Assembly (NCBI GenBank): GCA_024220525.1
Contig: JAMYWO010000226.1
Coordinates: 5,452-37,077 of the forward strand
Reading direction: 5' to 3'
From: Cochliopodium minus
Taxonomy: Eukaryota > Discosea > Himatismenida > Cochliopodiidae
DNA length: 31,626 nt
Positions 1 to 31,626 of the stretch are shown piece by piece. A model generated the notes under the pieces. That model did not search any database and was not told the DNA's origin. It was given only the letters and a program-made list of their open reading frames with translations. Both the position numbers and the translations under genes were made by a program. The first letter of the stretch is position 1, and each line of letters begins with the position of its first letter.

Positions 1-3000
1 GTATCCTACGATATCGTGCTCACTTCCTACGAAATGCTCAGCAAGGACATTGAGACTTTCAACTCGATCAAGTGGAGCTATATGATTTGTGACGAAGCTC
101 ATAGAATGAAGAATTCCAATTCCAATACATTCATAAACTTGTCCTCAATCAGAGCTTCTCACAAGTTACTCATGACCGGAAGTAAAAAAAAATTCGATTT
201 ATTTTTACATTATTTTTTAGTTTTTATTTTTTTTATTTTTATTTTTTAAATTTAGCACCTGTACAAAACAATATGGAAGAGCTTTTTACACTTCTTAGCT
301 TCCTCCACCCTGAAAAGTTCGAAGACAAAGACGAGTTTTTGGAGGACTATGGCGACTTGAAAGACTTTTCCAAAGTTCAGAAACTTCAAAAATTATTGTC
401 TCCCTACTTATTAAGAAGAATGAAAGAAGACGGCAATGATTTTTAAAATAAAAAAAATTTTCGTTTCATTTATTTATTTTTTTTTTTGTTTTATTTTTAA
501 ATTATTTTTATATTTTAGTTGAGAAAACTTTGCCAAATAAGATTGAGACAATTATCAATTTGGAACTCACCAGCATCCAGAAGACCATGTACAAGGCAGT
601 ACTTGAGAAGAATGCTGATTTCTTGAGATCTGTCACCAATCACAGAAAAACTAGTATGAACATGATGATGAATGGTAAATTAAAAATTATTTAAATTATA
701 TGAACATTTTTATTTTTCATTTTTAAAATTATTTTATTTTAAACTTTAATTTTTTTATTATTTATTTAAATTTAATTATTTTTGATCATGTTTTATTTTT
801 ATATTTTTTTTTATTTTTTATTTTTTATTTTTTATTTTTTATTATTTTTTTTTTTTTTTATTTGTTCTGACTTATTTTATTTTAAAAGTGAGAAAGATCT
901 GCAACCACCCATACCTCATACAAGGAGCAGAGTTCGGAATCAAAAAAGCCAACGAGAACGAAGAAGAGCTCTACAACATCATAAGATCCTCCTCCAAAAT
1001 GGTGCTCCTCGACAAACTCCTCAAAAAACTTCAGTCAGAAAAAAGAAAAGTTCTCATCTTTTCCCAGTTTACCATGATGTTGGACATTTTGGAGGATTAC
1101 ATGACTTACAGCAACTTCAAGTATGTCAGGTTGGATGGGCAGGTCGACAGGGTTTCTCGACAGGATCGTATTGATGAGTTTTGCGATCCCAACTCTGATT
1201 TGTTTGTTTTTCTCATTTCTACTAAAGCTGGTGGTATCGGAATTAACTTGGTAAAAAAAAAATTGTTTTCTTTATCATTTTTTTTGGTTTCAATTTTTTT
1301 GGTTTCATTTTTACATTTTCTTTCTTCATATTTTTTATTTCTTTTTTAAATATATTGATTTTTTATTATATTTTATTTTTTATTTTTACTTTTATTTTTT
1401 AAAATTATTTCTTATTTTTATTCGTAGCAAGTTTCTGATTCAGTCATCATTTTTGACAGCGACTGGAATCCACAAAACGACATCCAAGCAATTTCAAGAA
1501 GTCACAGAATCGGCCAAAAGAATGTTGTTCAAATTTATCGTTTGATAACGAAAGGAACTTATGTAAAAAAAATATTTAAAACAAACTATTATATGGTTTG
1601 TTTCAAAATTTAATTTTTTTTTTTTAAATTATATTTTTTTTTATTTTAATTTTTTTATTAAAATTTTCATATATTTTCATTAATTTTTTATTTTTCATTT
1701 ATTTAAATATACATCTTTTAATGTTTTTGATTTAAATCTTATTTAATTTTCATTTATTGTTTATATTTTTTTTCTTTTAATTTTTCTTTTTATTTTTTAT
1801 TTATCATTTTTTAATTTTTTTTTTAGGAGGAATACATGTTCCAAGTTGCATCGAAAAAATTGGGATTGGACTGCGTGGTGCTCGGAAACTTCGGTTCCAA
1901 AGACGCCTTCGAAGAAAAATCGGTGGACGAAATAAACATCGAAAAACTTTTGAAGTTCGGAGCTTACTTCCTTTACACCGACAAAGAAAACGAGGAAAAC
2001 AATTTAATAGAGGAAGATATCGAGTCCATATTGAAATCCCGCACTGTTGTCATTGATCATACTGTTCAGCCCGAACAGGACAACAATAACTCTCGCCTTG
2101 GCGTTAGGAATTTGAGCAAAGCTACTTTCAATGTCGAAAATTCTAATGACATTTCTTTGGATGACAAAAACTTTTGGTAAAAATTATTTTTTTTTATTTT
2201 ATTTTTCATTTTTTATTTTTTTATTTTTATTTTCTTCCATTTTTTTATTTTTTTTTTTTTTCATTTTAAAGTTTTATTTTATTAAATTATTATAAAGGGA
2301 TAAAATTTTGGTTCACACTCACACTCCCATCTCCTTATTCAATTACATGGAAAAGATTGAAAAAGATTCAAACTTTGACAGAGAAAAGTTTGTCTTGGGT
2401 AAAAATCTAAAAAAAATGAATATTTGTTATTCTACATTATTTTTACAACATTTTTAAATATTCCCAAAATATTTTTTAAAAATATTTTTAATTTTAAAAA
2501 ATTTTTTTTAAATAATTTTTTTTTAAATAATTATTTTAAATAGGAATAAAACAAGTCTACACTCACATTTTGGAAGACAAGAAAAGCAAACTGATAGACT
2601 TTGACATCAACGACAGAATCACCAAGTTCATCATGGTGCTCGAAAACGTCTCCAAAAACAGTTTCTTCACCGAAAAGCAACAAAAGATGGCCTTTTCCTT
2701 CCTCGACCATCTCAAAAACGACAGAAAGAAGAAAGTAGATTACAAAAAGACCAAGATCATCAAGGGTATCGAAGAAATTGTCGAGGAAAACAAAATAAAG
2801 ACTTTTCAAGAGTACTTTTACGAAGCTGTTGAACGCTTTGGTCCTTTTCAGTACACTAGGGTCGCCGAATATTTGAAAGACAACACCAAAGTAAATTTTA
2901 TTTTAATTTTTTATTTTTTACAAATTTTTTATTTTTTCTCAATTTTGTTTTTTAATTTTTCTCAATTTTTGTTTTTTAATATTTATATTTTAAATTTTTT

Positions 3001-7469: not shown

Positions 7470-9406
7470 ATGATGGAATTTTATTCAAAAAGTTGTAATG
7501 GTGATCACAGTTTCTTTTTTGATGGTAAAAAATTGAAATGAATAAAGGAAATATTTGCAATTATTTTTCTCTTCTTCGATAAAATATTCCAGAAAAGGAA
7601 AAAATAGTTTATGGATGTGGAAGTAATCAATATGGTAATTTAATATCTCAATAAAAAACTCTTTCAATGATTTCAGAGAAAAAAAAACATTTGAAATTTC
7701 AAATATAAATACTTTTTTCAAAATATAAATAGGTCAATTAGGAGATGGAACAATCGAAAGTAAAAAAATAATTGTGGAGGTATTGAAAGGAATAGATGTG
7801 CTCTATATAAGTTTCGGAGAAAAATTTTCGCTGATTTATTGCTCAAATGGAGATTTGCTAGGAATGGGAGATTCTGATTACTTAAACCAGAAAAAAAGGA
7901 AGATAGTGGAGAAATTTATTTTGAGGCCTAAATTGATTTTAAATGATGTTGATATCAAGTCTGTTTGTTGTGGGACTGATTTTGTTGTTTTTTTGAAAAA
8001 TGATGGCACTGTTATTCTCAATTATATCATTAAAATTGAGACTCACATTCAATTTATTTCTGCTGGTAAAAAAATTAAATAAAAAAACAAAAACAAATAG
8101 TGCGAAAAAATAAAAAAATAAAAGATGAATAAAATATAGATAAAATGAATAATAATTAAAATAAAAAATGAAAAAATAAAAAAATGAAAAAATGAAAATA
8201 AAAAATAATAAAAAATAAAAAAATATAATAAAAATAAAAATAAAAAATAAAACTAAAATAAAATAATAAAAATAAAATAATAAAAATAAGCTCCAAAAAT
8301 AATGAAAAAAAAAAATTATTATTTTTTAAACAGGAAAGGACTTTTTTTTGATGTACTCATACGATGAAAGAATGTTCGGATACGGTTCTAACAAAAATTA
8401 TCAACTTGATCAAAGTTTGGAAGAAAAGGATTATTTTACCTCCACTCTTTTGTTCGAAATGCCTCATTTAAAAATGTTGGAATGTGGTGGAAACTTTACA
8501 TTGGCTTACAAAGAAAATGGAGATTTGATGGGTTGGGGAAGTAACAGTAAATATTTTTTAATATTTATTTTAATTTATTTTTAAAATTTAATTTTCACAA
8601 TTTTGTTTTTACAATTTTTTTTGAAAGACTGTGGTCAACTTTGTTTGAATGGAGAAAAAATAGGAACTCCAACATTGATACTAAATAACAAAGATATCAA
8701 ACAAATAAGTTGTGGCAATCTGCACAGTATGTATTTAACTAATGATAGCGAAATCTTCGTTTTTGGAGGAAATAAAAATGGACAAGTATAAATAAACTTT
8801 AAATTCAATTTTTCTTTTAAATTTAAAATTTTTTTTTACAAGCTTGGGATAGGATTTTTAAATAACACAGATTCCCCCAAAAAACTTGAAACAAAAAACG
8901 AAGGAATTAAATATGTAGGTGCGTGTTCTCGCCATTCTATGTATTACACAGAAAAAGGTGATGTTTATGCTTTTGGATTCAACTCGTAAAAATAATTAAT
9001 TATTTTTTTCTTTTTATAAAATTTTTTCAATTACATTTTTTTTTTTAGAAATGGGCAAATTGGGATAATCAACAAACAGAATATTAATATTGAAATTCCT
9101 CAAAAAATAATGAGTAATGCCAATCTTTCCATGATCATTTCAAAAACAAACAGAACAATATGGACATCAGATAGACATTCCTCATTTCCAACTCTCTTCA
9201 AAGAAAACGTGTCGACATTTATTAAATGTTTGAAATGTAAGCAAACTGTTTGGAATGTAAAGATTCCCAAATTCGTTTTGTTTCACATCATCTCGCTTTA
9301 TTCTTCTCCTCCTTACATTCCTTCTTCCAATCAATCTACCAAAATTTATGAATATGTTGAAAACAATGATTATGATGAAAACGCCAATTATTGTTCTATC
9401 TTTTAA
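7470..9406 (+). CDS. RCC1-repeat (regulator of chromosome condensation-like) protein
   Basis: Exons: 7470-7524, 7593-7634, 7733-8065, 8334-8546, 8628-8785, 8843-8985, 9049-9406; 433 aa ending TAA. The protein is almost entirely an RCC1-type beta-propeller. Blade signatures recur: VYGCGSNQYGQLGDG, MFGYGSNKNYQL, MGWGSNNCGQL, VFGGNKNGQLGIG and AFGFNSNGQIGI, each followed by a (S/A/E)CG/ACS...H/F..Y/L stretch. Blades are cut by introns inside the G-N-x-x-G-Q motif. After the propeller a C-terminal segment contains KIPKFVLFHIISLY (9260-9301) and a Tyr/Asn-rich tail. RCC1 propellers act as Ran GEFs or as general protein-interaction modules; no catalytic claim is made. The start could be 7473 instead, as two ATGs are adjacent. 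It is convergent with the Sir2 gene. Confidence 0.88.
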
Positions 9407-9539: not shown

Positions 9540-11454
9540 TTAATCCTCAAACAATTTTAAAATTCCATCTTTTGCTCCAAGATTAATCAAAACCTGTCTA
9601 TCAGATCTTTGAGAATCATCTTTCAAAAAGCTGTGAAAAGGATTGATCCGAACAAGAGAAACATTAGAATTGTTCTGCAAAAGAAGTTCGGTCTCAATGC
9701 GCAAAGAATGAGCAGAGATGCCACAACCAATCTCCAAAATCAAAAGATTGTTCTGAGAATCAGCCACTTCATTGCTGACACATTTCTCACATTTACAATT
9801 TCCCTCACAAACGAAACATTTCCAATCATTATAAATTAATTCATTCTCAGAAATTGTTTCGCTAATTAAATTATTCTCGGAAATATTTCCGATTATCAAT
9901 TTATTCTCAGAAGAACTGAGATTCATCTTTGTTTTCTCATTCCCAAAATCCTTGTTATTCTCCTTGTTCAACTTACTGAAGCAATCCCTGCAAAAAGGAG
10001 CCTTGCAAAAAGCACAATGCATGAAAGAAGAAAGAACCCTTCGAGTAGGATAAAGATCACAACAATGGCAAGAGATGCCAGAACAATTTTTTTTTTTATT
10101 CGAAGAAATTTGAGGAGAAGATTTTTTTCTCTTCTCAATTTTAGGCTTAATTTGAAAGGCCTCTAACATTTTTTTATTTCTTAAATCCAAATTGACGAAA
10201 TTGCTCAACCAGCCTAAGAATCTTTGTTTTTGCTTGTGGATGCGAGATGAAACGAATGAGGTGTTGTCGTCGTTGAAGAGGCTTACGTTAGGGCGTGCGA
10301 CTTGTTGGCAGGTTTGGCAGGTGGGCAAATGCTTTTCTTCGGTCACTTTTAACGTTTCTTTGTCGTATTCTGGGAGATCTTTCAGATCCCATGTATGTTC
10401 ACCACAAGGTTTTGAACATTGTAAAGAAGAAAAACTTTATTTTTGTTTTCAAAAAAAAAAAATATAAAATAATTTGTCCATTTGGAATGTCTTGTATTAA
10501 TATATTATGATATTTGTTATATGAAGTACATTTATGAAAAAGTAGATTTTAATATTTTGAGTTGTAAGTAATATTTACCTTCCATGTGCTTCATATATTT
10601 TATCTTCTTGATATCCAGCTCTATAAAACATTCCATCTACATTCGAACTGAATACAAAGAAATTTTTGTTCATTTTTTCGAGTGATTCTAATAATTTGTA
10701 ATATCCATCATGTGGATTTGAATTCCTGTAGACCCCTATCTTTTGAGAGTATAATCCCCAAGCATTAATAGGATTTTGCAAAAACCTAACAATTAATTTT
10801 TAATTCTTGTTATTTTAAATCAATATTATGTTTATATTGTTGAATTATACCATGATGGATCGCTTATTTGTTCTATAGTCAAATTAAATTTTTCATATAT
10901 TTCGTTATCTGTCCATACTCCTTTCTCTCCTCTATATGTTGGTAATCCACAATCTGAACTCATTCCAGCACCAACAATTACCAGTATTGCTGATGATTCT
11001 TTGATCATTTTTTTTGCAGTGAGTATATTTTGCTCTAATTGAAGAATTTTGATGTCCCCAGATGGAACTGATGGTGCTATATAAAAGGGATTTGGTATTC
11101 CATATCCATCCATATCAAATTCAGGGAAAGATACTGAAGTATTTAACTTAATTCAAAGATAATTGTGAGATTTGTAGATATTTTTTGAATATGAGTATTT
11201 GGATTCATTTTATTGGTTTCAATATTTTAATTGAGATATCTTTTTTTATAACGGGAATTTTTTTTGAAAATTTGATTAAAATTAAAGTTTCTTTTTTGAT
11301 TCCAAAACAATCCAAACAAAATGAATCTTTCAAATGATAGTTTTTTCTTTTAATAAGTTTGTACTTTTTGTTTGTCTGAAGACCATATGACTATTTCTTC
11401 ATAAATATGTGAACTTAACCATTGAACTTCTTTTTCATCTTCTTTTAAATCCAT
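9540..11454 (-). CDS. Sir2-family NAD+-dependent deacylase with a 4CXXC zinc finger inserted in the catalytic domain
   Basis: Exons in transcript order: 11454-11365, 11146-10851, 10785-10579, 10434-9540; 495 aa ending TAA. Sir2 enzymes remove acyl groups from lysine using NAD+. Motifs in order: GAGMSSDCGLPTYRG (89-103); FSSNVDG (174-180); catalytic AHG (H196); zinc ligands C204, C208, C237, C240 (QCSKPC, CQTC); RPNVSLFND (245-253). The Rossmann end follows only at LLILEIGCGISAHSLR (about 428-443) and RINPF. Between these lies a cysteine cluster at 320-416: CHCC, CAFC, CRDC, then WKCFVCEGNCKCEKC. The last spacing equals that of zf-4CXXC_R1 fingers (CDCA7 and JmjC-type proteins). Acyl preference cannot be told. 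The first exon (MDLKEDEKEV...) is inferred from phase and splice sites; a start at 11113 is the alternative. Confidence 0.89.
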
Positions 11455-13399: not shown

Positions 13400-16300
13400 T
13401 TAATTTTCTGATAGAAGATCATTTGAGGAGATAGATGGTTGTAAAAATTTGATATGTTCATCAAATCCATATTTATATCTGTAAACTATGTTATCTTCGC
13501 AAACCAAGACACAATCAACAGAAATTTGAAGCATGGAAGTAATTTTGCCTTTACAATTTGGAAAACTCTTTACAAGTTGGAATGTATTAGAATCAAAAAT
13601 CTTAATTTCTATTCCGCAAGTAACCCAAACATGAAGGAGATTCGAACAATTTACAGTAAGAAAAGAATCGATGTTACTTTTAAATGCTGAAAAGTGTGTC
13701 ACTAAAAAAAAAATTTATTAAAAAAATAAAAATTAAGTTAAAATAAAAATAAAAATTTTTTTTTTACCCAACTGAAAGTTTGATAAATCAAAAACATAAA
13801 TTTCACCACTTTCTGTCGGAACCCAAAGATGATCATTACAAACGAAAAGATGCGTGACATTACCTTTACACCCATCCAAGGCTACCTTTGTTTGAACATT
13901 ATCGCCCAAAATAGAAAACGCCCAAACTTTAGTTTTTATGGAAACAAAAATAAAGCTGCTCTCGAAACTTTCTGAATAAAAACAATGAGATGAAGGGAAA
14001 GAAGACAATGGAGCACTCCATTTTTTCTTTTTAAATTTGTCGGTGAGAGTGTACAGAACCTTTAAAAATAGAAAAATTTAATGAAATCAATAAATTTTAA
14101 AAAATAAATTTAATAAATAAATTAAAAATATTAAATTAAAGATATCAATAAATTGAACAAAAGAAATAATCATTAAAAATAAATAAAATTAAATTAAAAA
14201 TAAATTAAATTATCAAATATTAAATAAAAAATAAATTTAAAAAAAGTAAACCATTTTCTCATTGTCGAATAGAACCACCTCGCTATTTGAAAGGAAAAGA
14301 AGAGAATTTTTCTTTTCTTTGTAGAGGATTTTGGGTTTAGAAAGGGAGTTCTTGGAGAGTTTGGTAGAGAGGACAAAATTCTCGCTGGAAAGGAGACACT
14401 TGTCCTCTTCGAAGAAATGCATGAAACTCACCGCAGAGCTAAAAAAAGAGGAGTTGGAAACGATTTTGTTAGAAAGGAGATCTAAACAAACAATGTTGTT
14501 GTTTTGCAAACAAAAAAAAACGGATTGTTTGTGTAAACATGAAAAAATGCAAGCGGAGGAAAGTTCCGCCGCGAAATTTTTTTCAAAATTGATTTTGTTG
14601 AATTTTTTCTCGGATTCGTTGTTAAGGACATCGAGGGGATTAAATTGCGAGTTATTGCTGTTGCTGTTTTTGTTGAGTTTGATTCCGGTGAGGAAGCAGA
14701 TTTTGTCGACGATTTCGGCGAAGCTGGGTCTTTCGCTTGGCTCTGTTTTCCAGCATTTGTAGACCATCTCGCTCAATATTGATTTTGGAAAGTTTGGTCT
14801 CAATTCGTGTTTTAATATTGCTTTTTAATTTTCAAATAATAGTAAAGCGAATAAATAATTAACAATAAAAATTAAAAAAATATGAATAGAAAGAAAATAA
14901 AATAATATTCAAAACAAAAATCAAAAAAACATTTGAAAAAAACAATTCAGAAATAAAAGCAATTTTTTTTAAGAAATAAATACATTTTTTTTTTAAAATT
15001 TATAGTCAATAAGTAAAATTTAAAAAAATAAAATTTTATTAAAAATAAAAATAATTTAAAATAAATCAAAATAAAAACATTTTAAAAATCAATTAATAAA
15101 AATTAAAATTTGAAATATCTACAATTAAAATCAAATAAATTCTAAAATAAAAAGTGAATAAGTAAAATTTAATTAGAAAAATAATTATAATATCAAAATG
15201 ATTTTTTTAAAAATTAAAATTTAAAAATTAAATTTTAATTTGAAAAATAATTATAATATCAATTAAAATCAAATAAAAAAATTTTAAAATTTTTTTTACC
15301 TTCGATCAAATCACGACCATTATTTTTCCAAACCCTTTTCTTTTGTCCCAAAACAATTTTAGTGCCAGAAACGTTCAAAGCGTTTTCGCTGGTATTAAGA
15401 TCCATGTTTCCGCTGTTGGTAATGTTTTCGTCCATCACTTCAATTTCTTGGATGAACTCTACGTACTCCGAGAAACTCTCTTTTCGGGTGAACACTTCGT
15501 AAACGATCATTCCAAAGCTGTACACATCTACTTTTTCATCGTATCTTGAATGGTTCAGGCATTCGGGTGGTACAGTTGTGAAATTAGCTAAATATTTTAA
15601 ATGTTTTTTTATTTTGTTTTTGGTTAAATTTTATTGAATTTTTTTTATTTTTTGTGTTAAATTTTATTGAATTTTTTTTTTTTTTTATGTTAAATTATTT
15701 TTTCATTTTCAATTTTTTAAAATATTTTTTCAAATTTTTTCGAGCTATTTTTTTGATTTTTTAATGTAAAAAGTAAAGTTTGATCTCTTCCATTATTTTT
15801 ATTTTCATTTTTAGTTCAATTAATTTAATTATTTTTCCATTATTTTTTAATTTTTTATTATGTTTTAATGTAAAAAGTAAAGTTTAATCTCTTCCTTTAT
15901 TTTTTATTTGAATTCAATAAATTTGATTATTTTCTTTAATTATTTTTTCACTATTTTTTATTTTTATTATTTTTTTTCATTTCTCATTTTTTATTTTTTA
16001 TTTTATTTTAACTGTTTTTTTATTTTTGATTATTTTTTATTATTTTTTATTTTTTATTATTTTTATTTTTATTTTTATTAAAATTTGTTTTACCCAATAC
16101 TTCCTCCAATTTACTCGAGAATTGCTGAGCAAGACCAAAATCACCAACCTTGCAACACACATCTGCGTCCACTTCCAAACTAACCACGAAAACATTGGGA
16201 CATCTCAAATCCCTGTGGATGATGGGAATCGAATGCAAGTACTTCATTGCCTTTGCAACATCCAAACAAAATCTCATTTTTAATTTTTCTGACATTTTTT

Positions 16301-19300
16301 GATAAAATAAAAATAAAATTAAAATAAAATTAAAACCGATTAAACTAAATTAAATAAGAAAAATAAATAATAAATAAAAAATAATTAAAATTTAGAAACA
16401 AAAATCAAAAATAATAAAATACTGAAATATAAAATCAAAATCAAAATTTACAATTAAAATATTTTAATTGTAAAAAAAAAAATAAAAAAAAAAGTAAAAT
16501 AAATAAAATTAAACAATTTAAATTGAAAATAATTAAAATTTAGAAATGATTTTAAAATAATATTAAAATTAAATAATTTACCAGAAAAAATTTCTTCAGG
16601 CAACAAAGTAGTATTTTTGAGATGTTTGTAGAGGTCTGGTAGTTGGCAATACTCGAGGACCATTTGTGGAGGATTAGACTTGATTATACCCAAAAACTTT
16701 ACTAAGTTATCATGTGAAAGAGAAGACATCAAAACCTAAATAAAAAATTAATTATTAATTAATTTGAAAAAAAAAATTAATAAATTAATTATCAATTAAA
16801 TTAAAAAAAATTTATTATTAATTAAATTAAAAAAAATTTATTATTAATCTAATTAAAAAAAATTAATTATTATATTAAAATTAAATTGTTTTACCACTTC
16901 ATGTTGAAATTCTCTGAACCCATCCAATAAAGTGTCTTTATTCAAATCTGTGTTGAGCCTTTTAATGGCGACAGTTCGAAAATTATTGTGAATTCCTTTA
17001 ATTTATAAAAAAAATTAAAAAATTTAAAATATTAAAAATAAATAAAATTTAAAAATAAATAAAAATTAAAATGATAAAAATTTTTAAAATTAAAAGAAAA
17101 AATTTTATTTAAAAAATAAAAAATAAAAATAAAATATTTTAAATTTGAAAAAATAAATAAATTTTTAAATTTTGATAAAAATGAATATAAATTAAAATTG
17201 AAAAATTAAAAAAATAAAAAAATATTTTAAATAAATTAAAAATTTAAAATTTAAAATGATATAAAAATTTGAAAATTAAAATGAATAATTTCTCACCTTT
17301 GTAGACAGTTCCAAATGAACCTTTTCCGATCTGTTCCAAAACGGTGACATTCTTCAAAACGGGAACATGACTCAAAGTGATGTCAGGGGTGAGTTTGTAA
17401 AGAGAAATGAAAGAATTGCAGAGATTGCACTCAACAGAAGTTTTTCCCGCCAAAAAAGACTGAAGACATTCTTTGTATCCGAAAGACTTCTCCTTCTCCT
17501 TCCCGATGCATTGGTAGCAATACACTCTGTGAGAAACTTTGCTTTGGTTGTTTCCGGAGTAAGTGCTTTGGATGAGGGAGTTGATCAAACTGATGAACTG
17601 GTGGATGAGAGGAACTCTTTCTTTTTTGTTTTTAATAATTAAATTTTCGTTGAAATTATTTTCTATTTTTCTATTTTCTATCGTATCATTTTTATTATTA
17701 TTTTCTATGTTATTATTTTTATTATTATTATTTTCTATGTTATTATTATCGTTATTTGCATTTTCTTGGTTATTTCCAACGGGATCTTTTTTTTCATCTT
17801 TTTCCTTGGAGTTGTCGTCGTTGTCCGCCTTTTCTATCGTGATGATCTCCAATGCAAAGAATATTCCCCTCGTTGTTTTCACTTCTTCTTGAAGAAACCT
17901 AATTGATCCACTTATTTCCAACTCTAATCAAAAAAGTGAATTTAAAAGTTTTTTATTTTTTAATTGAATTAATTTTTTGTTTGATTTTTTTCTGATTTTT
18001 ACAATATTATATTTTTTTAAAATAATTTTTTTTTGAAACAATTTTTTTTTGCATTATTTTTTTTTTGTATTATTTGAATTAATTTAAATTTATTTATGAT
18101 TTTATTTTTGTTTTTATTTTGATTTTTTAATATATTGTTTTTACCTTTGTTTTCAATTTCGATACCATTTCTCCAAACATTGATGACCCGAGCTTGAATG
18201 GTGTTAATAACCCTAACAATGATCCTAGAAAAGAAGCCATGAGGCAAAAACTTAAAGTTGAAAACCCGCTTGAAAAGAGAAAAGCCCCTCTGCCTCCTCT
18301 CCTCAAAATTAACCGAAGAAACGACAAGTTTGACTTCAGGAAGCTCCGGCAACAAAGAAGGGATCACCACAACTTTTTTGTTGTTGTTTTCCAAGTTCAT
18401 GCGGTAGACGACTTCGAATTTCTCGAGGAGGGAGACGAGAAATTCTCGCATTTTGCTGGGGAACTTCTCCCAGATCTTGTCGATCACTTCTATGGAGGCG
18501 GTGGCGTGGTGGAAGTTGTTTTTGAAGGAGATGATGTCGCTCATTCTGTTTGCGAGCCATTGCGGCGATAGGACCACCACGTCTTTTAAGTTTGGATTGT
18601 CAGGAAAGTACATTAATGTTCCCTATTCAAAAAATAATTATTTTTTTTTTAATTTTAATTTTATTATTTAATTTTTATCATTCTTATTTTTGATTTTTTA
18701 TTTATTTTTTTATTTAATTTTAACTATAAATGTTTTTATTGAATAACAAATTTATATTTTTTTAATTTTACATTTTTTATATTTTAACTTTAAATGTTTT
18801 TATTGAATGAAAAATTTATATTTTTTTTACATTTTATATTTTTAATTTTATTTTAAATATTTTATTGATTTCATTTTATTTTGTTTTACTTGTTCGTGAA
18901 GAAATGAAGTGACTGAAGACAAAGAGTTGATAGGAACTCCAACACTAGATATCGCCAAGTTTTGATACTCATCATATGTGATGATATCTTTTTTTGTTGC
19001 CAATTTTTTTATTGCTTGGTCTAATTTTAACTATCAAAATTTTTAAAAAATAAAAGAATATAAGAAAATAAGAAATAATAATAATAAAATAGAAATTATT
19101 AAAAAATAAAAAAATTTTAAAAAAAAATTAAAAAATTTTTTTGAAATTTACCCAAAAAGTAGGAACGACTCGTTTGTTTAGGTTTTTAGATCTAACAATA
19201 TCTACAAGAACTTCTTCCAATTCTTTGATTCCCTTCCCTGTTTTACAAGAAACGAAATTGACGTGTTTAAGCTGAGAAATTTTCAACTTTTTAAAACTCT

Positions 19301-22300: not shown

Positions 22301-25300
22301 TTGGTGAAGTAACTTCGTTATTATGTCCTAAACCAAGTTGCCCAACTGTGTTTTTCTTTAAAAAGAAATTAAAAGAGATTTAGAAAAAGTTTATAATTAA
22401 TTTTACACCAAAAGAGTAAATCGTTTTGGATTTGCTCATGATCATGGTATAGTTAGCTCCACATGCACATCCAATACTTTCATCATTTATGTTTATCAAA
22501 GTTGGAGATCTCACAATAGGAACAATGGAGTTTGAAGTATTAATACCACATTCTCCAAACTGATTTGCTGAAAATTAAAATTAATTAAATTCAAATAAAA
22601 AAATAATAATAATTTTAAACGATAAATTATTCAAAATTAAATTAATAAAAATAAAATAAAATTTAAATAAAATTAATTAAATTTAAAAAATAAAAAAAAA
22701 AATGAAAAATAAAATAAAAATAATTGAAAATTAAATGAAATAAAAAAAATAATGATTTTAAAAATAATTTTGAATAACAATTTAAACGATAAAAATAATT
22801 TAAAATAAAATTAATAAAAGTAAAATGAATAATAGAATAAAAATAAAATAAAATTTAAATAAAATTAAATAAATTTAAAAATGATTTAAAATAAATTAAT
22901 AAAACAATTTAAACATTAAAAATAATTTAAAACATAAAAATAAAACTAAATTTTACCTCCAAATGAATACGATTGACCCTTTTCAGTAATTAGGACTGTG
23001 TGTGCCCACCCACAAAAAACACCAACCACAACATCGTAGAAGGGAACGAGTGTAGGAGTGGTGATGATATTATCATTTTGTCTTTCAAACCCAAGTTCGC
23101 AGTTACTGTTGAATCCAAAACCATAAACTTTCCCAAATTCTGTGAGAATCATAGTATGATTCCCACCACAACTTGTTGATCTCACAGGTTCTGGAATTAC
23201 AATTTGTTTTGGTATTGGAACACCTGAAAAAAAAAATGGAATGAATAAAACAAAACAAAATAAAATAAAAATAAAAAGATTTCAAAAATAAAAAAATTCA
23301 TAAAAAATAGAAATAAAATTAATTTCAAAAATATCATAAAATTTCAAAAAAAAAATTTAGACAAGTTCAAAATTTATTCATATAAAATCAATAAAATTTG
23401 GAAAATAAAATAAAATATTAAAACTTTTACAATTTTCTTTTTTTCCTATTCCAACTTGACCTGTTTATATGTTAAAATAATTATTTTAAAAAGTGAAAAT
23501 AAAATGAAATCCAATTACCAGCTTGACAATTTCCAAAACCAACAACATTTCGGTCATTCAACATCAAAATGACGTGAGAATATCCAGCACTCAAACCACA
23601 GATGCTAGAATTTTCAATGACGTCTATTTTCTTGGGAGACCTGTATATTTCTTCTGCCTCTTTAACTCCACCTTGATGGTAATTGTTGTAACCACAAGAC
23701 AAGAAACCATTTTCTTTAGATTGAATGTATGAAGTGTAAGAAAAGCTGCAGGAACAGTATGGTTGGGTTTCCATCTTGTCTAGGAGTCTTTTGAGGAAAT
23801 GCGCGTTTTGTTCCAGACAGGAGAGGTAGAGGACCTTGGATCTTTCGGAGGGAGACAGATTTCTGAACTCTTCAAAGATGTAGTTGAGATTGGACTCTTC
23901 GTCTACATTTCTAAACTCTATGTTTAACAAGTCAATGTATTTTGAATATACATCAGAATACTAAAAAAAAAAAAAAAAAAAAAAAAATAAGGAAATTAAA
24001 ATAGGAAATTAAAATAGGATATTAAATAAAAAAACTTTTTTTTCTAACAATTAAATGAGAAATAGTCGGGATGAATATTGGAATAACACTCTTTTGTAAT
24101 TCTAATCCTAGTTGACCAGACTTTCCATCTCCCATAGAATAAACTTTGTTGTCTTCGGTCAAAACGTACAAAGTTTGGTAACCAGAATTAATGCAGAGTG
24201 GCTTTTTGTCATTGAAAAACTTTATCTGCTCTGGCAAAACGACAATATTCTCCGAACCAAAAATGCCCCAGTAAAAAATTTTGAAACATTGAGTCAAACA
24301 AGCAACAAAAGTGTTACCCACCGTAACATTTTTTATTTTGTATTTATCTAACATTTTGATAAAGGTTGGTTTAAAGTGATTTGTTTTTGCGCCCAATCCT
24401 AAGACACCGTTTGAACCTTGCCCACAAGAATATAAGAATCCACTGTTAGTAAGGAAGATGGTGAAGTTTTCTGATGGAAACACTTTCACTATGATTTCGT
24501 CTTTGGAGTTGAAGAGAATTTTGACTGGCTTCTTAATATAATTCAATGTTTTTCCAAAATACTCTTCATCTTTACCAAAACCTTTTTAATAAAATCAATG
24601 TTATAATTAAGATTAATAGATTATAAAAAATTAAATTTAAATAAATAAAAATTAAAATTATTTATTCTTAAGATTAATACCCAATTCGCCAAATCTAAAA
24701 TTTCCCCATCCATAAACATTATAATTATTATCAATCGCAAAACTATGATGTGATCCTGATACGATATCAATTATTCCCATTTCTGAAAATTCAGTGATTT
24801 CTGTGAATGAATGTGAATGATCAACCTCTTCTGTTCCACTCGCATACACCTTGTTATTTTCAGTGAGTAAAATTGTGCCTGATTCTCTCAATGCAACTTT
24901 TATCACTTTGAAATCTATCTTTATATATACAGGTTCTATTGTAGTATCTATCAATATCTGTCCAATACCAAATTGACCCTGATATATCAAAAATAGAGAA
25001 AATTATTTTTGATATATTAAAAATTATATATTATTCCCTGTATTACTTTTTAATAATATCGATAAAGGATGTATATTATCCATTGTGGGAGTATTTATTG
25101 AAATATATATGATTTATTTACTTTATCAGCTTTTCCCATCCCTCTCATCGTTCCATCATTCAACAATACTATACATAAATCCTTTGAACCAAAGATATGT
25201 TTTATTTGATATGGTGCATATAGATCCACTTCGTCTACTTTCGCATTTGGATGTTTATCTCTCCTCAAAGCTTGCCCATTATTGTTTGATCCGAAGGTAA

Positions 25301-30701: not shown

Positions 30702-31626
30702 TCAATTCTGTTGTATTCCCAATTCATTATCGACTTTGTTGAATAAATCTCTCCAAATAACAGATTTAACCTGATTATGAATCAAATTATCAACTTTTTG
30801 CTTTTCCATTCTGAATTCAAAGGGAGATTCTCCAAACAAAAGGCTCTTATCTTTTTCCCAATCGAACATGCAAGAAGAAGTTCCATTCCCCTCGTAATCT
30901 CTGAAAGGATTCAACTCAATTATGTAGCATTTATCATTTTCAAAATCAACAACAAAATCTTATCAATAAAATCAACATAAATCATCAAAACAATCAAATA
31001 AGCGTTTTAAAAATTAGAAATTATTTTACCAACAACAGCACTACAATTTTTATTTCCAAATTTTTCAGATAGAACCTTTGGAAATAAAGTTTTCACTTCT
31101 TCGAAAAATTTCTGTACTCTTTTCAAATATTCATCCTTTTTATCGATCAGATTTTGAAAGTAGACATGATGATAGTATTGGCATAAAGCGGTCAATTTGT
31201 TTTGATAAATGAATCCACGAAATTCATTGCTGATAGGAATGGTAACCCATTCTCTCAAAATGACATGTTGGCTCCATTCTTTTTCATTTTCCAAAGCGAG
31301 TTCTAAATCTGTTTTAATTCTTTCAGATCTTTTAAAAAATTCCAAACATTGATCTCCATTATCACATTTCAATGCTTCAATATGTGCTGTTGAAAGAAAT
31401 ATTGTCAAATTTTATTTATATTTTTAAAATATTGGTTATAAAGGTTTTATTTGTTATCACCTCTATAGATACATGCTACCTTTGCATTATCATCCTTTTC
31501 TTTTGATTCTGTATAATATTTTCTGTACAAATCTTCAGTTCTTTGGCCGGCCATAGAAGCATCTTTTGGAGATCTTGAACTTAATTTACAAAAAGCACCA
31601 GATGAATTGAATTTTTTGATTGCCTG
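30702..31626 (-). CDS. CDC123/D123-family protein (eIF2 assembly factor type), N-terminus beyond window
   Basis: Exons in transcript order: >31626-31461, 31386-31030, 30958-30702; 259 residues visible, ending TGA. CDC123 is an ATP-grasp-fold cytosolic protein that promotes assembly of the eIF2 translation-initiation complex. Diagnostic blocks: FCKLSSRSPKDA near the window edge (matching the family's F-x-K-L-x-x-x-S-P-K-D-A), ILREWVTIPISNEFRGFI, LTALCQYYHHVYF, FVVDFENDKCYIIELNPF, and a closing SLLFGESPFEFR. The IELNPF motif holds the acidic and Asn residues that bind Mg-ATP in the family. The order and spacing are as expected, and only the first part (start codon and early strands) is missing. 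No sign of decay. Confidence 0.92.

Follow-up and report, generated by a model that had tools for sequence, protein, structure and literature searches.

A Sir2-family protein of Cochliopodium minus interrupted by a divergent zf-4CXXC_R1 finger

The window analyzed here is a stretch of 31,626 nucleotides from Cochliopodium minus (assembly GCA_024220525.1, contig JAMYWO010000226.1, positions 5,452 to 37,077 of the forward strand). It encodes a Sir2 protein whose catalytic domain is, judged by sequence, interrupted by a divergent relative of the zf-4CXXC_R1 zinc finger (PF10497). Such an interruption had been proposed from the letters of the window (the original prediction), and it is borne out by one homologue that scores above the Pfam cut-off for the finger family, by a profile of three members that finds CDCA7 in the PDB, and by a shuffle test on CDCA7. 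We give a probability of about one half to the following reading: this is an expressed bacterial-type Sir2 deacylase that gained the finger and a basic linker, apparently once, and the finger recruits the enzyme to chromatin. The gene, its transcript, the catalytic residues, the finger family and a single clade of three members are read from sequence; the fold is predicted.

Gene, transcript and sirtuin core

The spliced model has four exons on the minus strand between 11454 and 9540 (11454-11365, 11146-10851, 10785-10579 and 10434-9540). Its introns of 218, 65 and 144 nt are all GT..AG, and it yields a protein of 495 residues. An open reading frame (ORF) of 495 aa from a EukProt transcript, P0001, matches this protein end to end at 494 of 495 residues, the single change being D487E. 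Because this transcript ORF matches the whole protein, the gene is transcribed and the insertion is part of the mRNA; the earlier claim that the insertion is no splicing artefact holds. The stretch 9540-10434, described before as one uninterrupted exon, is exactly exon 4. The residue numbering given there is also correct (RPNVSLFND at 245, CHCC at 320, CAFC at 338, CRDC at 346 and LLILEIGCG at 428), and further finger motifs lie at 402 (WKCFVC) and 413 (CEKC).

The Sir2 motifs are all present, as the original prediction stated: G89-G91, N177, D179, H196-G197, C204/C208/C237/C240 and E432-G436. Across 23 aligned sequences, G89-G91, S176-N177, D179, H196-G197, R245-P246, E432, G434, G436 and R443 are invariant or at least 90% conserved. 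In the zinc module, C204, C237 and C240 are invariant and C208 is at least 90% conserved. Pfam SIR2 (PF02146) matches residues 89-264 (1.3e-20, 74.5 bits with a cut-off of 24) and ends close to the insertion. Sir2 is the sole enzyme domain that Pfam finds in this protein and in its homologue P0002, and neither has a JmjC domain. Seven NCBIfam deacylase models match partially, every one under its own cut-off. Among PDB sirtuins, 1ma3 is the closest in sequence (7.6e-14). The protein, which retains its catalytic residues, is probably an NAD-dependent deacylase.

All features of the gene are on the minus strand. Exon 1 (11365-11454, residues 1-30) is fully matched by P0001 and carries an N-terminal motif, WLSSHIYEEIVIWSSD (residues 12-27, 11374-11421). 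This motif has no Pfam match. Similar stretches, of the form WxxSHxxxxxxxWSS, occur near the N-terminus of the finger-free, eukaryotic-looking proteins P0005, P0017 and P0018; the last has an additional N-terminal region. Exon 2 (10851-11146) contains the start of the Sir2 domain and the NAD-binding motif GAGMSSDCGLPTYRG (GAG at 10964-10972). Exon 3 (10579-10785) encodes the catalytic SSNVDG, with N177 and D179, and EAHG, with H196 at 10584-10586. Exon 4 (9540-10434) carries the zinc module, the insertion and the C-terminal Rossmann half without a break. The structural zinc module (10308-10418) comprises LQCSKPC and CQTC, which supply C204, C208, C237 and C240. The C-terminal half (9540-9752) comprises the LLILEIGCGISAHSLR strand and loop, LVRINP and the stop codon.

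The original prediction put about 175 residues between RPNVSLFND and LLILEIGCG; the count is 174. Since relatives have a normal connection at that place, the net gain is about 144-148 residues. The insertion covers approximately residues 277-425 (9753-10199) and, in the AlphaFold model, lies in an alpha-to-beta connection, after helix 261-274 and before strand 428-433. In that model the two Sir2 halves form a single sirtuin fold despite the insertion, which answers the earlier question of whether they could come together, and the model aligns to sirtuin chains over residues 65-495. The structural alignment list for the model (VIA-align) is filled by sirtuins and is uninformative on the finger. 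In a Rossmann fold, connections of this kind lie at the edge that is remote from the NAD pocket. One of the two roles suggested earlier for the finger, gating of the active site, is unlikely because the insertion links helix and strand at this edge.

Within the insertion, a basic, nuclear-localization-like linker (residues 284-316, 10080-10178) lies directly before the finger (C320-C416, 9780-10070). Of the residues that separate the WL motif from the finger, lysine and arginine account for 12 of 43 in the window protein, 11 of 32 in P0002 and 9 of 31 in P0016; the latter two thus carry a comparable basic stretch. The linker may be a nuclear localization signal.

Identity of the inserted finger

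Three proteins (P0001, P0002 and P0016; hereafter the trio) share the finger. All three have the 11 signature cysteines and the tail pattern CxxCx3CxCxxC. For zf-4CXXC_R1 the Pfam cut-off is 22.7 bits. The P0016 segment scores above it (25.6 bits, 1.4e-5) and whole P0016 just below (22.5 bits); P0002 is under the cut-off both as a segment (20.1 bits, 7.6e-4) and whole (17.5 bits). Because the window finger itself falls below the cut-off and scores better for another family, zf-CRD, the family assignment rests on these two homologues. The zf-CRD family is associated with CHFR. It was rejected as the identity of the finger: zf-CRD is not among the matches listed for P0002 and P0016, their best finger family is zf-4CXXC_R1, and the trio profile ranks CDCA7 first.

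Searched against the PDB, a profile of the trio finger places CDCA7 at ranks 1-3 (3.2e-4, 8.5e-4 and 2.1e-3), followed by HRS (0.019); composition bias accounts for about 11-12 bits in this search. In a shuffle test with cysteines fixed and other residues shuffled, CDCA7 scores 37.2 bits and the shuffles average 15.1, with none of 300 as good; these scores are computed without null2 correction and are comparable to the shuffles only. The test covered CDCA7 and the zf-4CXXC_R1 loci of the same genome: for 12 of the 18 loci no shuffle in 300 was as good, and for the other 6 between 1 and 4 were. By sequence, the finger is a divergent zf-4CXXC_R1 relative.

Its class within the family differs from what was first supposed. 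Class I fingers are described as having 11 cysteines and three ICF residues, whereas class III fingers (IBM1 type) are said to keep the 11 cysteines, to lack every ICF residue and to be deleted between cysteines 4 and 5 and between 6 and 7 (PMC10538959). CDCA7, a class I protein (HMZF), shares with the trio the 11 cysteines, the identical tail and the motifs CHxC, FCxxC and NWxC (DW for NW in P0001). It differs in that the trio finger keeps no ICF residue, is shorter between cysteines 3-4 and 4-5, and is embedded in an enzyme with little room for the C-terminal HMZF extension. The equivalents of R274, G294 and R304 are D, A and L in P0001, G, K and L in P0002, and N, I and Y in P0016. The spacing between cysteines 4 and 5 is 4 in the trio versus 7 in CDCA7, a class III-like deletion. 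Between cysteines 6 and 7 it is 54, 23 and 15 in the three members versus 19 in CDCA7; the class III deletion is not uniform there, and in the window protein a 54-residue loop occupies the place. The CDCA7-type label of the original prediction was therefore dropped: these are shortened, divergent fingers without ICF residues. By spacing and ICF loss they appear class III-like, a likeness to IBM1 drawn from its description only. Class III JmjC proteins (IBM1, DMM-1) and KDM3 resemble the trio in having an 11-cysteine divergent finger with a short spacing between cysteines 4 and 5 and no ICF residue in a chromatin enzyme (PMC10538959). In class III the enzyme is a demethylase and the finger, by description, lies outside the catalytic domain, whereas in the trio the enzyme is a sirtuin and the finger lies inside it.

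Relatives and genomic setting

Protein searches returned 15, 27 and 17 hits, or 41 distinct proteins, 29 of which were read letter by letter. The finger tail pattern occurs in 3 of the 41, the trio. P0002 and P0016, found on ENA contigs of 12,340 and 4,037 bases, answer the earlier call for homologues: their insertions occupy the same place, and all 11 cysteines align. The insertion is not due to chance, because both share its place and every one of these cysteines. The residues from RPN through the end of ExGxG could be counted in 28 of the 41 proteins. This span is 145-192 residues in the trio, 76 in P0017, where a basic loop without a finger accounts for the length, and 42-52 in the other 24. 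P0018 has an extension at the insertion place, and its C-terminal half is not recognizable.

A scan seeded with one bacterial protein, and hence not covering all Sir2, gave 88 bacterial loci, of which 80 were kept and 78 were measurable. All 78 span 41-46 residues, compared with 192 in the window protein, and none has the insertion. The P0003/P0005 type of Sir2 protein (HGSxxxLQCxxxC ... ARPNxxMFGD ... ExGxG), which occurs in bacteria and protists, shares the catalytic, zinc-module, RPN and ExGxG motifs of the window protein; it differs in lacking a finger and in a span of 41-52 residues (76 in P0017) rather than 145-192. This Sir2 subfamily is widespread in bacteria. The insertion was not confirmed in any of 62 pattern matches in viral contigs. 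Antiphage Sir2 models (PADLOC) do not match P0001, P0002 or P0005; P0003 has one weak 'Effector' match (0.0036).

A tree built with the inserts removed has 35 rows, 22 from the 41 proteins and 13 from the 78 bacterial loci. It unites the trio in one clade with 100/100 support, which recurs in 100% of 200 bootstrap trees. Only 48% of the columns are filled for P0016, P0001 has an unusual composition and five other rows are long-branched. On the simplest reading of these sequences, the insertion was gained once.

We also searched the genome (44.65 Mb, 598 contigs), one exon at a time. Besides the window gene, Sir2 matches occur on C29 (3.0e-11), C26 (4.1e-5), C321 (0.0012) and C159 (0.228), and none reaches the insertion; among 7 candidates scored, no paralogue has it. 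The zf-4CXXC_R1 family has 18 matches (loci L029-L046), which do not include the window finger. Eight are on contig C50, and the whole set looks like a lineage expansion. Many of these loci read CHQCK..FW..KCxGKYC. The top score to the trio finger profile belongs to L038 (C229:17933-18163, 50.7 bits), which has compact middle spacing as in the Sir2 insert and, lacking the second cysteine in the stretch read, one cysteine fewer. L038 is possibly kin of the donor finger. JmjC has three matches among 10 candidates, and SRA has a single partial match below the cut-off. The DNA methylase search gave one locus (2 matches of 4 candidates) with the motifs PPCQPFTRLG and CFTKGY, which look like those of DNMT2. 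DNMT2 is a tRNA methyltransferase. A role with hemimethylated DNA is less likely in this setting; DNA methylation itself is still possible because exons were searched one at a time.

Elsewhere in the window, the chromatin remodeller of the original prediction is present as an SNF2-type Helicase_C domain (786-1349, plus strand, 3.9e-12); its naming as CHD is the earlier reader's label. An RCC1-like gene lies between it and the Sir2 gene. RCC1 repeats flank the Sir2 gene on both sides (7729-8082, plus; 23481-24585, minus), and further RCC1-like stretches can be seen by eye as far as 25002. Pieces of COR-A/COR-B and of a protein kinase at 17244-18622 and 14237-15630 (minus), some below cut-off, suggest a Roco-type kinase gene. 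A D123 domain fragment lies at 31007-31411 (minus, 3.8e-14).

Possible functions of the finger

The reading that we prefer, recruitment of a sirtuin to chromatin, would work as follows. A divergent zf-4CXXC_R1 finger on a basic linker is predicted to sit in a Rossmann alpha-to-beta connection, away from the NAD pocket. The linker would carry the protein to the nucleus, and linker and finger together would dock it on DNA or nucleosomes; nucleosomes are where the best-known relative of the finger acts. The docked sirtuin would then deacylate nearby histones or chromatin proteins. The finger would recruit and not gate, and the protein would operate in the manner of IBM1-type 4CXXC-JmjC demethylases, the sirtuin taking the place of the demethylase. 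A stricter version, in which the finger reads DNA or nucleosomes and is coupled directly to the adjacent NAD-binding Rossmann strand, with deacylation only on the bound nucleosome, would make this the first known sirtuin with an in-domain chromatin reader. We consider that version rather unlikely.

Several observations weigh against recruitment to chromatin. We infer nuclear location, DNA binding, deacylase activity, partner and substrate. The window finger is under the zf-4CXXC_R1 cut-off of 22.7 bits whether taken whole (14.1 bits) or as the insert (12.5 bits), and without its long loop it scores 8.9 bits (E 2.3). The insert scores higher for zf-CRD (20.4 bits, E 6.8e-4), also below that family's cut-off (26.3). 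The P0002 finger alone, compared with the PDB, ranks RIM2 (0.32), WSTF (0.38) and UHRF1 (0.48) ahead of CDCA7 (0.94), none of them significant. All three CDCA7 ICF residues are lost in the trio. The human CDCA7 cysteine-rich segment alone is reported not to bind DNA without its C-terminal extension (PMC11343034). AlphaFold confidence is low across the insertion, only 11-32 residues separate the finger from the Sir2 strand in the trio, and among solved folds the class M sirtuins come nearest.

Some of these observations fit a finger that does no DNA reading and acts as a protein-interaction or structural module: it could dimerize the enzyme, hold a partner, or aid catalysis in cis, as the C2HC4 finger does in KDM3A, where it is described as necessary for activity (PMC3623819). 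Loss of every ICF residue and the location of the insert inside the enzyme core are compatible with such a module. So are the weak matches of the trio profile to FYVE, RING and TRIM proteins (E 0.019 and worse) and the slight precedence of RIM2, WSTF and UHRF1 over CDCA7 for the P0002 finger. However, the trio profile matches CDCA7 better than any other PDB sequence, all three members have a basic linker ahead of the finger, and the catalytic motifs persist in relatives that lack the finger, which the basic fold therefore does not require. We regard this alternative as a serious one, with perhaps a third of the total probability. Coupling of a CDCA7-like reader of hemimethylated DNA to the deacylase, in DNA methylation maintenance, is very improbable. 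The shared Pfam family, the top rank of CDCA7 for the trio profile and the partial SRA match in the genome would suit it, but none of the three ICF residues is kept in any member, cysteines 4 and 5 are 4 and not 7 apart, the sole methyltransferase locus found resembles DNMT2 by its motifs, and there is little room for the extension that human CDCA7 needs.

The fold raises a different alternative, that the protein is mainly a class M-like protein ADP-ribosyltransferase which the finger brings to chromatin or another target. The solved folds nearest to the model are the class M sirtuins SirTM and Mfs1 (5a3a, 8rsn), and the zinc-module stretch QCSxPC is common to the window protein and the class M-like P0035. 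Class M sirtuins are described as ADP-ribosyltransferases, and no finger appears in the part of that paper describing the class (PMC4518038). ADP-ribose transfer is possible given this closeness of fold, but the catalytic histidine is present: the window protein keeps HG (H196-G197) where P0035 and class M have the defining QG, and in SpySirTM the change from Q to H abolished activity (PMC4518038). No macrodomain was found in the protein or in the 18 window ORFs scanned, which is not an exhaustive set. We think this alternative improbable. An artefact of gene model, assembly or pseudogene has a negligible chance. The gene model was built by hand, but the transcript ORF is identical at 494 of 495 residues, and P0002 and P0016, from ENA contigs, have the same insertion with conserved Sir2 halves; transcript and homologues have in practice already refuted it.

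In the literature searched, which covered few subscription papers and no bioRxiv preprints, we found no published Sir2 with a 4CXXC or CDCA7-type finger. PF02146 and PF10497 are named together once, in a passage on separate tomato proteins where PF10497 belongs to a KDM3-type JmjC protein. The account of eukaryotic 4CXXC fingers in PMC10538959 places them in CDCA7, DDT-WHIM proteins, chromodomain proteins and JmjC demethylases, and Sir2 is not mentioned in that account.

With a sirtuin, the 4CXXC finger would occur in a second kind of chromatin enzyme, in addition to the JmjC demethylases; this suggests that the finger is an adaptor which evolution attaches to enzymes of this sort. A whole zinc finger inside a Rossmann core that keeps its catalytic residues is a clean natural domain insertion, which can be compared with relatives that lack the finger. 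Should the finger read chromatin, deleting it would be a simple way to test how a sirtuin is targeted.
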